DNA from: Brenneria izbisi | Lineage (GTDB): Bacteria > Pseudomonadota > Gammaproteobacteria > Enterobacterales > Enterobacteriaceae | Direction: 5' to 3' | Length of the DNA stretch: 64,000 bases | NCBI RefSeq assembly: GCF_025840185.1 | Contig: NZ_JAMPJU010000001.1 | Location: 124,001 to 188,000 of the forward strand | In this document: one piece after another, positions 4,542-9,030 of the stretch | Numbering within the stretch: position 1 is the first letter of the stretch | How the letters are laid out: every line of letters starts with the position of its first letter | Notes under the pieces: generated by a model | What the model was told of the DNA's origin: nothing | Seen by the model: only the letters and a program-made list of their open reading frames with translations | The model's database searches: none | Program-made: the position numbers and the translations under genes

Positions 4542-5378
4542 TTAAATCTGACCATCTTTACGGATCCGTTCGATATGAATGGCAAGAAACATCACTTCTT
4601 CTGTTGTTAATTCATACTGATAGTGATTCAGTAGATGCGTTTGAATCGTTTCCGCACAATGCCACGCCTGACCATAATTGATTTTAATCGCAGCGTGTAA
4701 ATCGGTATCGTCATCCTGAACCGTAGCGCGATTCAACATTCGCTGGGCAAAGAACTTCAGATGCGTAACAAAGCGATGGTAACTTAAGTTATCCTCTTTA
4801 TATTCCAATTTGAGTTGAAATTTAGTGATATCCAGAACTTCATTAACTATTTGAGTAATATGGATTACCTCAGGCATTTCATTACCGAGTTGTGCCGTGA
4901 CCAGATGTAATGCGATGAAGCCGGCTTCATCTTCAGTCATTCTGACGCCCAGACGGTTGTCAATAATATCAAGCGCTTCAAGACCCAGTTGATATTCTTT
5001 TGGATAAAGGCGCTTTATCTCCCATAACAATACGTTTCTGATATTTATGCCTTTCTTATGACGTTCAAGCGCAAAGTAGCAGTGATCGGTCAGTGAGATA
5101 TAAATATTTTCCTGCAATTCCCCCAGTTTTTGCTTGGATAAATTGATAATACGATCGCAGGTCGTCATGACGTCAATAGGGATCTGGCCGAGTAGTTCGC
5201 TTAATCTGGATGTGATTTCATCGTTTTTTAAAGCAAATACTTTTTCAATTTTGCTGACATCAAGGATATCGCTGGCTTTTTTCTGAAAACCGATACCAAG
5301 CCCCATAACGACTTGCTCTCGATGGTTTTCGTCCAAGACCACAACAATATTGTTGTTAATGACTTTGGCAATTTTCAT
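4542..5378 (-). CDS. BglG/LicT-family transcriptional antiterminator
   Basis: RNA-binding antiterminator that, when active, binds a RAT sequence and prevents formation of an overlapping terminator. It has 278 residues: an N-terminal CAT domain ([10 protein letters not shown]..., with [10 protein letters not shown] near residue 30), then two PRDs. PRD1 has histidines in LTDHCYFA and [10 protein letters not shown], and PRD2 in [10 protein letters not shown] and MFLAIHIER; these are the phosphorylation sites in the family. Two adjacent ATGs exist, and the second (5378) is favoured because GAGG lies 5 bases upstream. It is the last gene of the PTS operon, whereas bglG is first in the E. coli bgl operon. 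Its own leader carries a second RAT-like site. Confidence 0.93.
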
Positions 5379-5387
5379 CATAACCTC

Positions 5388-5435
5388 GAAAAACCTGAAA
5401 AAAATCAGATTTTACCTGCCGATGAAGTAACAAAT
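5388..5435 (-). promoter_or_regulatory. Second, degenerate RAT with weak terminator before the antiterminator gene
   Basis: On the minus strand, ATTTGTTAC...GGCAGGTAAAATCT (5407-5435) fits the BglG/LicT RAT pattern GGATTGTTAC...GCAGGCAAAACCT with several differences. Its 3' end overlaps an inverted repeat (AAATCTGA ... TCAGGTTTTT) that ends about 10 bases before the antiterminator start. This is the arrangement expected for RAT-controlled readthrough into the regulator's own gene. Confidence 0.6.
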
Positions 5436-5596
5436 ATGCGTGATAAATTAGCACTTTATTCGTTTAAATTCAACATGAAGCAATATTTGGGGTTTTGATT
5501 AAAGTGAGAGGGATAATTAGCGTAAACGCAGGATGGAAAAATAACGGTAAGAGCGGGAATGAAGTACAAAAAGCCCCATCATTCCCACGATCACGA

Positions 5597-6631: not shown

Positions 6632-6633
6632 TT

Positions 6634-7599
6634 TTAACAACCTCCTTTATTGACTCTCGCGGAATCAATAATATCCAAAGCCATCAGACTGATGTTCAAC
6701 ATAGCATGAGCGCGCTCATAATCCAAATTATCTATGATGTGAGAAAACGCGTTGAACTCATAATATAGCCGGTGTTTATTGTCGTTCCCATCAATTAATT
6801 CCGATTCACCCGTATTTTTATTGAACGTGAACGCTTTCAGAATATTCATAGAGCTTTCTATGACAATGTTACCTTCAGTCCCTTGAATCGATATCATAAT
6901 CGGCGCTTTGCAATCCTTTGCGCCGATACTGGATACTTTGAATTGGCCATAATCTAAATAGAGAATACCACTGGTATCGACTCCTTTTTCAACATTCGCA
7001 AAGTATTGCGATGATTTTGGTGAACCAAACAATCCAATAATGGAATGTATGTTATAAATATTCAAATCCATCAATGCACCGCCGTATTTTTTCGGATCGA
7101 ATGCAGGATGAATGATACCTTGCTTAAAATCCGCATATCTTGATGAATACTGACTGTAATTAAATTGGGCGATTTTTATTTCACCTAGCGCCTTGATTTT
7201 TTCTTTCAGTAACGCAAAAGCAGGCAGGTAATGAATATTCATTGCCTCAAGAATTATCAGGTTGTTAGCCTGAGCGATCTGTTGCAATTCAATAAGCTCG
7301 GATTTATAAGGAACAATCGGTTTTTCTATAATGACGTGCTTGCCTTTTTCAAGGGCTTTTTTTGCAAAAGAAAAATGTAAATGATTCGGTAGCGCGATAT
7401 AGATGGTATCAACATCGCTTTGCAGCAGACGGTCATAGTCAACAAAAACGTGGCGGATCCCATAGGTGGCGCTTAATTTATGACCTTCTTCTACGGTGGC
7501 TTCTGTTGCCAAAATAGCGACTAACTTGATATCCAGATCGTTGATCGTGGTAAGTAAATCATGAACGATCATTCCGGTACCGATAATTCCAATTTTCAT
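6634..7599 (-). CDS. Gfo/Idh/MocA-family oxidoreductase
   Basis: Second NAD(P)-dependent oxidoreductase of the operon, 321 residues. It has a classical N-terminal dinucleotide-binding motif (KIGIIGTGMI), IALPNHLHF, the family motif IIEKPI with its conserved Lys near residue 94, and a downstream GGALMDLNIYNIHS segment carrying the conserved Asp and His. It is clearly a different subfamily from its neighbour, so the two are not a recent tandem duplication. It lies 39 bases downstream of the PTS gene. In this superfamily members oxidise or reduce sugar carbons, and some cleave glycosides through transient oxidation; which applies here cannot be read from the sequence. Confidence 0.85.
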   Translation of the reverse strand: MKIGIIGTGMIVHDLLTTINDLDIKLVAILATEATVEEGHKLSATYGIRHVFVDYDRLLQSDVDTIYIALPNHLHFSFAKKALEKGKHVIIEKPIVPYKSELIELQQIAQANNLIILEAMNIHYLPAFALLKEKIKALGEIKIAQFNYSQYSSRYADFKQGIIHPAFDPKKYGGALMDLNIYNIHSIIGLFGSPKSSQYFANVEKGVDTSGILYLDYGQFKVSSIGAKDCKAPIMISIQGTEGNIVIESSMNILKAFTFNKNTGESELIDGNDNKHRLYYEFNAFSHIIDNLDYERAHAMLNISLMALDIIDSARVNKGGC

Positions 7600-7638
7600 A
7601 GATTATCTCTACTTATTTAAGGGTATAATTGATTTTCA

Positions 7639-9030
7639 TTAATCTTTAGGATCATCCCATCCTAAAATTAACGTCATGATAAAGCATAGTATGAAAGATA
7701 TTATCACTGCGGCAACCGCATAAATTAAATTAGCGTACTCACTGCTTTTCATAAACATTAATATCGCTACCAGAGAAGGCACGCCAAATGAATAGGCTTT
7801 AAGCGAAACCATACCGATAAAGACGCCCGTTATACCTGACCCAATCATCGTCGCAATAAAGGGCTTGCGAAGTTTTAATGCCACGCCGTAAATGACAGGT
7901 TCGGTTATGCCGGATATCGCCGCGGTGATGAAACCGGAGATAGAAATGGCTTTCAGATTGGTATTTTTGGTTTTCCAGGCAACGGCGGCACTGGCTGCGG
8001 AAAATCCGATATTCACCGCCAACATACAAGGCAATACGATGGATTCATGTCCGGTCGTGCCCAATGAACTAATCATATAGGGCACCATCGCCCAATGCAT
8101 ACCTGTAACGATCAAAAATGGCAATATTGCTGAAAAGATACCTAATGTTAACCAGCTAAAACTTCCCTGACTGGCCGAAATAATTATCGACGCGATCCCT
8201 GAACCAATAATATTTCCCAATGGCGCCAGCAGAATCAATGAAATAGGAACACAAATCAGTAATATCAACATAGGTTTGAAAATTGTTTTAGCCCATCCTG
8301 AAATATACTTATCGGTGATCGGTTCTATTACGGATAAAAAATAGACAATAAGGAAAGCGGGAATGACAGATGAAGCATAATGTGAAGCTACAACAGGCAC
8401 GGTCAAGAATGACGAATTCCCTTGTGTAAACATCGCAATAAGATCAGGATGAATGAGAATACTGACGATGACGACCGATAACATCGGGCTACATTTCATC
8501 TTTATTGCTGCTGAATAAGCCACCATGATGGGCATAAAGTAAAAAGCGGCATCGCTGATTATGCCGAGCAGTTTGATGGTGGGATATTCCGTCGATACAT
8601 TGAATAGCTCTAAAACCAAGAGAAGTATCTTAATCATCCCGCCGCCAATAAGCACTGGCAGCAGGGAACTCATGGTTCCGGTAATAACATCAAGGATTGA
8701 ATTTCCGATTTCTTTTATTGAAAAAGTTTTACTGGGTGCTAATTGATTCTCTTTTGGTTCGGCTGACGGGCCGATATTATCATCTACTGCTATCAGTTTC
8801 ATCAAATCAGTGTAAAAGCGGGATACATCCGTCCCAACGATTACCTGATATTGTCCACCTCGACGCGAGATCCCTATTACGCCGGTGATACTTTTGATGC
8901 GCTCATCATCAATTGTATCGTCTTTTTTCAATACAAACCTTAAACGCGTCATGCAATGGGATAGCGAAACAATGTTTTCCACTCCACCTATTTCACGCAG
9001 TATGGCTGATGCTGAGTCTACTGTTGTCAT
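7639..9030 (-). CDS. PTS sugar transporter EIIBC, glucoside family
   Basis: Membrane permease that phosphorylates its sugar during import. It has 463 residues: an N-terminal EIIB domain with the phospho-cysteine at residue 26 (SLSHCMTRLRF) and a C-terminal EIIC domain with multiple hydrophobic segments and the hallmark GITEPVIYGV. There is no EIIA domain (BglF is about 625 residues and includes one), so phosphate probably comes from the general EIIA-Glc (Crr), as for TreB or MurP; that is inference. It is the first gene after the RAT/terminator leader. A GGTGG ribosome site lies 9 bases before the ATG. The sugar is not identifiable. Confidence 0.92.
   Translation of the reverse strand: MTTVDSASAILREIGGVENIVSLSHCMTRLRFVLKKDDTIDDERIKSITGVIGISRRGGQYQVIVGTDVSRFYTDLMKLIAVDDNIGPSAEPKENQLAPSKTFSIKEIGNSILDVITGTMSSLLPVLIGGGMIKILLLVLELFNVSTEYPTIKLLGIISDAAFYFMPIMVAYSAAIKMKCSPMLSVVIVSILIHPDLIAMFTQGNSSFLTVPVVASHYASSVIPAFLIVYFLSVIEPITDKYISGWAKTIFKPMLILLICVPISLILLAPLGNIIGSGIASIIISASQGSFSWLTLGIFSAILPFLIVTGMHWAMVPYMISSLGTTGHESIVLPCMLAVNIGFSAASAAVAWKTKNTNLKAISISGFITAAISGITEPVIYGVALKLRKPFIATMIGSGITGVFIGMVSLKAYSFGVPSLVAILMFMKSSEYANLIYAVAAVIISFILCFIMTLILGWDDPKD

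Follow-up and report, generated by a model that had tools for sequence, protein, structure and literature searches.

The bgl, asc and lic operons for beta-glucoside use join a leader RNA with a ribonucleic antiterminator (RAT) site, a BglG/LicT-type antiterminator, an enzyme II (EII) permease of the phosphotransferase system (PTS) and an enzyme of glycoside hydrolase family 1 (GH1). BglG/LicT proteins are freed when the substrate of their PTS is present, and read-through of the leader then follows. A related operon lies in a 64,000-nucleotide stretch of the Brenneria izbisi genome (3.9 Mb; assembly GCF_025840185.1, contig NZ_JAMPJU010000001.1, positions 124,001 to 188,000), referred to here as the window. 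It occupies the minus strand, is read from 9170 to 4542, and consists of a RAT/terminator leader followed by genes for EIIBC, for two NAD(P)-type oxidoreductases of the Gfo/Idh/MocA superfamily (here ox1 and ox2) and for a BglG-type protein, all on that strand. The RAT leader, the antiterminator and the glucoside-family EIIBC are shared with the bgl, asc and lic operons; unlike them, the window operon has no EIIA domain and no GH1 gene, carries the two Gfo/Idh/MocA genes instead, and places bglG last rather than first. The operon is a bgl-type variant. Its ox1-ox2 pair forms a module within a known superfamily, and our searches of the open-access literature gave neither a described function for this module nor any paper on it.

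The pair is tied to phosphorylated sugars and sometimes to GH1, and it is no general stand-in for GH1. We tentatively favour, at somewhat less than an even chance, a reading in which the two enzymes oxidise and re-reduce an imported 6-phospho-sugar or 6-phospho-glucoside and an ordinary GH1 enzyme, here acting in trans, finishes the route. The beta-glucoside-type PTS would import and 6-phosphorylate a sugar or glycoside not directly usable by ordinary enzymes, and BglG would then permit RNA polymerase to read through the leader. Ox1 and ox2 would convert a ring hydroxyl of the phosphorylated sugar to a ketone and back, most likely at C3, one enzyme oxidising and the other re-reducing, with epimerisation or rescue of an oxidised glucoside as the net result. 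The product would be an ordinary 6-phospho-glucoside, split by a GH1 6-phospho-beta-glucosidase encoded elsewhere in the genome. The scheme starts from the observed gene content and leader and from the recurrence of the pair in association with PTS, RpiR and GH1 genes; the substrate class, the carbon position, the oxidising partner and the supply of GH1 in trans are what we infer. A broader version, in which the RpiR- or PTS-linked pair acts as a widespread redox epimerase of two enzymes, or as a rescuer of keto-sugars, for 6-phospho-sugars and 6-phospho-glycosides, and opens non-gluco or oxidised beta-glucosides to ordinary phospho-glycosidases, perhaps even working without one in this operon, seems to us possible although rather unlikely. 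If the pair does act on phospho-sugars by redox chemistry, it could account for the use, by such bacteria, of glycosides that resist ordinary phospho-glycosidases, and it would offer a clue to YhhX-like enzymes; in the enterobacterial operon the system is available in small, testable form.

Recurrence of the ox1-ox2 pair and its gene neighbours

Copies of the pair are spread over Bacillota and Pseudomonadota, in some cases next to PTS genes. At E <= 1e-90, ox1 was detected in 11 of 394 Enterobacterales genomes, the window's included, while ox2 at E <= 1e-150 was detected in the window's genome alone among 394 and in 115 of 395 genomes sampled in the Bacillota order of Liquorilactobacillus aquaticus. 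We sorted 182 loci and defined a pair as an ox1 homologue of at least 380 bits and an ox2 homologue of at least 500 bits whose start positions lie no more than 4 kb apart, which gave 53 loci; L065 and L170 proved to be one locus, so these represent 52 distinct places. This number includes L036 and L037, near copies of the window operon, but leaves out the window itself. One locus in which ox1 reads as two frames (L041) was counted as a pair by hand and is for this reason outside the ox1 tree; L055 (ox2 494 bits, adjacent) and L168 (both genes, further apart) were counted as ox1 only, and five loci where the YhhX-like neighbour of ox1 belongs to another clade (L050, L056, L082, L088 and L091) were excluded. 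Three loci for which no centre was obtained (L071, L097 and L098) were left out. The contig scan for relatives kept the best 80 of 539, and the 80 Bacillota ox2 loci were picked by hand, mostly as the best-scoring ones. Weaker homologues served as the comparison set, which numbers 55 after removal from 56 of L042, the neighbouring bgl operon, which is no ox locus.

An RpiR regulator accompanies 40 of the 53 pair loci (39 of the 52 distinct places) compared with 2 of the 55 comparison loci, a Glc- or Lac-type PTS, the only EII types used as seeds, 15 compared with 1, and GH1 within 5 kb 10 compared with 1; the pair loci are mostly from Bacillota, whereas the comparison loci come from other taxa, are unmatched by taxon and, like all these loci, are not independent, which tempers the contrast. 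When related loci were merged by hand from the trees into 30 groups, RpiR was present in 23, PTS in 9 and GH1 in 6, the last compared with 1 of 55 comparison loci at Fisher p = 0.007. GH1 was also found near ox1 without a close ox2 at 4 of 25 loci.

The initial annotation left open whether a GH1 gene ever joins the pair, and several arrangements demonstrate that it does. A second operon in another Brenneria genome, G008, reads EIIB-EIIC-EIIA-GH1-ox1-ox2-porin with a divergent DeoR gene (L039), and operons of this type also occur in G051 (L041) and in Erwinia sp. JUb26 (L044); G064 carries BglG-EII-GH1-ox1-ox2 (L040). Among Bacillota, L169 has the order ox2-EIIC-UPF0303-ox1-GH1-SDR with RpiR divergent, the short-chain dehydrogenase/reductase (SDR) being assigned by eye and UPF0303 by likeness to L043, and L173 repeats this order with a short open stretch in place of EIIC. 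In seven of ten cases the GH1 gene and the pair share a strand; in L163, L192 and L199 they are on opposite strands. The S...K-x-Y motif of GH1, a mark of 6-phospho specificity, is present in all ten pair-linked enzymes and in 19 of all 21 collected GH1 proteins, a set that includes E. coli BglB; L060 and L185 are the exceptions. The GH1 of Enterococcus raffinosus (L031) is missing its N-terminus, has no listed gene and may be a pseudogene. With GH1 beside the pair in sister operons of the order PTS-GH1-ox1-ox2 and at 10 of 53 pair loci overall, the earlier idea that the pair replaces a phospho-glycosidase is weakened and finds no support here.

In the ox1 tree, the window clade, which includes L038 of G008, is sister to the GH1-bearing L039, L044 and L040 with support of 96/78, just under the level starred by the tool. 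The ox2 tree neither backs this grouping nor rules it out. Loss of GH1 from an ancestral PTS-GH1-ox1-ox2 order is therefore plausible.

Several observations weigh against the favoured scheme. No GH1 lies within 5 kb at 43 of the 53 pair loci and no PTS gene of the types sought at 38, so that the pair often lacks these neighbours; GH1 occurs near ox2 without a close ox1 at only 2 of 45 loci; and in the ox2 tree the window is not grouped with the GH1-bearing enterobacterial rows (forks 88/67 and 96/58). In Clostridium and Niallia a gene for ribose-5-phosphate isomerase A (RpiA) runs in the same direction as ox2 (L049, 7266-7949; L051, 7267-7953; L217, 6925-7611), a hint that another, ribo-configured sugar phosphate may be involved there, as RpiA and RpiB isomerases act on such compounds. 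The high share of loci without GH1 and these RpiA genes, as well as RpiB-like genes within 6 kb at L174, L203, L204 and L205, would fit a PTS that takes up a monosaccharide or an analogue, for example a rare epimer, which the pair would turn into a glycolytic sugar phosphate with no need for a glycosidase. We regard this as unlikely, considering that the EIIBC is closest to beta-glucoside transporters, that GH1 joins the pair in several arrangements and that RpiB lies on the other strand in L205, the one inspected.

Other neighbours were recorded along the way. A gene for a small UPF0303/HbpS-like protein is a repeated neighbour of ox1 or ox2 (L043, 7558-8004; L046, L169, L173, L203, L205, L215 and L218). 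The neighbours of ox2 at L167, L172, L189 and L193 and at L161 include other glycosidase-like genes, by eye GH36-like and GH3-like, and a Lac-type EIIC. Genomes of 2.1-2.5 Mb from one other Enterobacterales family carry ox1 without a near ox2 (L146, L149, L150, L153, L155 and L156), and G286 holds two ox1 copies.

Glycosidases in the operon and in the genome

The phospho-beta-glucosidase typical of BglG/LicT operons is missing from the window operon, where there is neither a GH1 open reading frame (ORF) nor a remnant: tblastn with the 21 GH1 proteins gave no GH1 trace between 3700 and 9300 (best E 0.096), and a decayed GH1 inside the operon was rejected on this search. A Pfam scan at E 0.001 gave no match to GH4 (PF02056) among the four operon proteins. 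The genome has three GH1 and two GH4 genes outside the operon, and the absence of a phospho-glycosidase noted in the initial annotation therefore holds for the operon and not for the genome.

The nearest of these enzymes belongs to a neighbouring bgl operon (L042) composed of BglG, EIIBCA, GH1, a GH78-type rhamnosidase and a LamB porin; its GH1 is 74% identical to E. coli BglB and ends 10.6 kb from the window operon. In G005, a second Brenneria carrier, the only GH1 found sits 9.1 kb from the operon. The similarity of the RATs of L042 to that of the window operon and the nearness of GH1 in both genomes speak for supply of GH1 in trans. A distant phospho-glycosidase always serving this operon, a possibility considered in the initial annotation, was not what we found: the GH1 10.6 kb away is part of an ordinary bgl operon, and enzymes of its score class occur in eight of nine genomes of the genus, the three operon carriers included. 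This wide occurrence means that the enzyme is not dedicated to the operon, a further point against the trans scheme. The GH78-type alpha-L-rhamnosidase of L042 (8040-9740, G000:C15), encoded between GH1 and the LamB porin some 4 kb ahead of the window, suggests the use of rhamnosyl-glucosides.

The lack of GH1 in the operon of any of the three carriers, where purifying selection is kept, raises the alternative, in line with the initial annotation, that the pair itself breaks a phospho-glycoside by transient oxidation in the manner of GH4 or GH109, with GH1 unneeded. YjhC and RgNanOx, superfamily members that act by transient oxidation, are among the structural neighbours and lend this some appeal. 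It is nevertheless distinctly unlikely, since GH1 stands beside the pair in the sister operons, the operon holds no further enzyme able to act as a lyase or hydratase, and the genome is well supplied with GH1 and GH4 genes.

Active sites and structural relatives of ox1 and ox2

Both proteins match PF01408 and a C-terminal domain above cutoff and belong to the Gfo/Idh/MocA superfamily; the description of the two as unrelated thus holds only in the sense that they are very distant from each other. Ox1 (321 aa, 6634-7599, minus strand) begins 39 bp past EIIBC. K93, D178 and Y182 are identical in 78 of 78 aligned ox1 rows, and N147, Q150, S152-Y155, K228, D229, H276 and R277 are found in at least 97% (the 78 ox1 rows and the 100 ox2 rows each contain one duplicate). 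The catalytic Lys and Tyr in the EKP and D-x3-Y motifs, which mark the D-x3-Y class (dihydrodiol dehydrogenase, glucose-fructose oxidoreductase and KijD10), occur in all 78 rows, dihydrodiol dehydrogenase being the member of the class compared at residue level. The AlphaFold model of ox1 (mean predicted local distance difference test, pLDDT, 94.8) has as its top solved folds 4NHE (with NADP), 4IQ0 and 2HO5, all from Streptococcus pneumoniae and with no function named. VIA Z scores were 36.2 for dimeric dihydrodiol dehydrogenase and 35.7 for the sugar 3-ketoreductase KijD10, and fold Z scores were 34.3 for 1,5-anhydrofructose reductase and 34.2 for glucose-fructose oxidoreductase. In a HMMER alignment, ox1 matches dihydrodiol dehydrogenase across the Lys and D-x3-Y site, so that the latter shares both fold and active-site pattern with ox1 and KijD10 the fold, although ox1 is only 19% identical to KijD10 and 22% to the dehydrogenase. 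The substrates of these two enzymes are nucleotide sugars or diols, and we know of no PTS or RpiR link for either. NtdC, a glucose-6-phosphate 3-dehydrogenase of antibiotic biosynthesis in the same superfamily, acts on a hexose 6-phosphate; we liken it to the pair by description only.

Ox2 (344 aa, 5597-6631, minus strand) was placed in a clade next to E. coli YhhX by NF007574, identity and fold. Its start is most likely the ATG at 6631, behind GGAGG and just past the ox1 stop, rather than the TTG at 6640; residue numbers follow P0002, the translation beginning at 6640. K102 and H186 are present in 100 of 100 rows, YhhX among them, and where the ox1 motif has Asp, ox2 mostly has Gly (88 of 100, motifs aligned by eye). 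The predicted model (pLDDT 90.6) is nearest in fold to YhhX (PDB 3F4L, annotated as a putative oxidoreductase; 45% identical, with the same Lys and His) and, further off, to YvaA (3GFG, 30%). Ox2 differs from YhhX in scoring 339.7 bits against the YhhX equivalog model, short of its cutoff of 352, and in residues fixed in its own clade and changed in YhhX, among them Q207, R237 and R241, which are candidate clade-specific substrate contacts. At the end of the second strand, which we used for a guess at the cofactor, ox2 positions 42-44 are mostly Y/F-S-R/P, and ox1 has T or R at position 32 in 58 of 78 rows and Glu at position 33 in 31 of 78. The glycoside 3-dehydrogenases BT_2158 and BT_2159 share superfamily and general chemistry with the pair; the window operon lacks a lyase or hydratase, and scores against their models (cutoffs 750 and 650) were far lower, at 26.9 bits for ox1 and 42.1 and 33.9 for ox2.

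Given the recurrence of the pair with PTS and RpiR genes, and an ox1 fold and active site close to those of 3-ketoreductases and dihydrodiol dehydrogenases, the redox handling of an imported phospho-sugar put forward in the initial annotation is reasonable; fold likeness by itself shows no function, and the activity of the pair is a prediction. The same resemblance to dihydrodiol dehydrogenase, and that of ox2 to YvaA (the inositol dehydrogenase IolW), could be read to mean that the enzymes act on an unphosphorylated aglycone or a cyclitol freed by GH1 and not on a sugar phosphate. This we judge very unlikely: the frequent RpiR regulator suggests, from the habit of such regulators, a sugar phosphate, and the majority of pair loci lack a glycoside system of the types searched for.

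Leader, permease and antiterminator

The leader RNA (9035-9170, minus strand) was delimited by RAT pattern, by fold and by comparison with the leaders of G005 (L036), G008 (L037) and L042. The RAT (about 9113-9140; pattern match at 9140, minus strand) reads GGATTGTGACTGCACAGCAGGCAAAACC and continues into the long stem of an intrinsic terminator, so that, as in BglG/LicT operons, RAT and terminator overlap upstream of the PTS gene. The folding energy of the leader is -41.2 kcal/mol (z = -7.39), with none of 200 shuffles as good; the leader's match to the Rfam bglG-cis-reg family reaches 28.7 bits compared with a gathering score of 80, and Rfam alone would not call it.

The EIIBC (463 aa, 7639-9030, minus strand) matches PF02378 (PTS_EIIC) and PF00367 (PTS_EIIB), and its best matches are beta-glucoside transporters, which bears out its assignment to the glucoside family. 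The best match in a plasmid collection, at 43%, is the EII of a LicT-EII-6-phospho-beta-glucosidase operon. It scores 435.3 bits against TIGR01995 (cutoff 614.7), a model of the full beta-glucoside IIABC, and 381.8 bits against the AscF model, below the cutoff of 722. The Pfam scan detected no EIIA domain, and the protein would therefore need to borrow EIIA from another system.

The bglG product (279 aa, 4542-5381, minus strand) combines CAT_RBD with two PRD domains and scores 366 bits against the LicT model NF046042, above its cutoff of 300, as expected of an RNA-binding antiterminator of the BglG/LicT type. A gap of 215 bp separates bglG from ox2 and holds only a faint RAT/terminator-like relic (5382-5420, minus strand; by eye, no tool score), so that the single four-gene, RAT-controlled unit of the initial annotation is an assumption.

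Conservation of the operon within the genus

The four-gene operon was also found in G005 and G008, and its gene order was seen only within the genus, where three of nine genomes have ox1. All four genes are under purifying selection: dN/dS (the ratio of nonsynonymous to synonymous substitution rates) between the window and G005 is 0.13 for EIIBC, 0.12 for ox1, 0.11 for ox2 and 0.06 for bglG, with 0.11 for otsA as a yardstick, and between the window and G008 it is 0.13, 0.09, 0.08 and 0.14, respectively. At E <= 1e-110, EIIBC was detected in 1 of 388 Enterobacterales genomes, the window's own, which provides no orthologues from which a substrate could be read, and a search of E. coli at the DNA level gave no match to a similar operon.

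An early stop interrupts the RNA-binding domain of bglG in G008, where part of the RAT region is also duplicated, so regulation is damaged there although the enzymes are kept. Together with the presence of ox1 in so few genomes of the genus, this could point to an operon in decay, with its GH1 and its function both lost. Such an explanation is highly improbable, as all reading frames are open and the leader is intact in both the window genome and G005, and the dN/dS values stay within 0.06-0.14. Transposase-like ORFs were seen by eye near the G008 copy (L037, G008:C30).

Downstream of the operon, a sub-threshold Rfam match to HPnc0260 at 4097-4300 was rejected because it overlaps the opposite strand of a tRNA gene (4265-4338, minus strand; anticodon GAC, valine, by eye). 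This tRNA gene lies about 200 bp beyond bglG and is a possible integration site.

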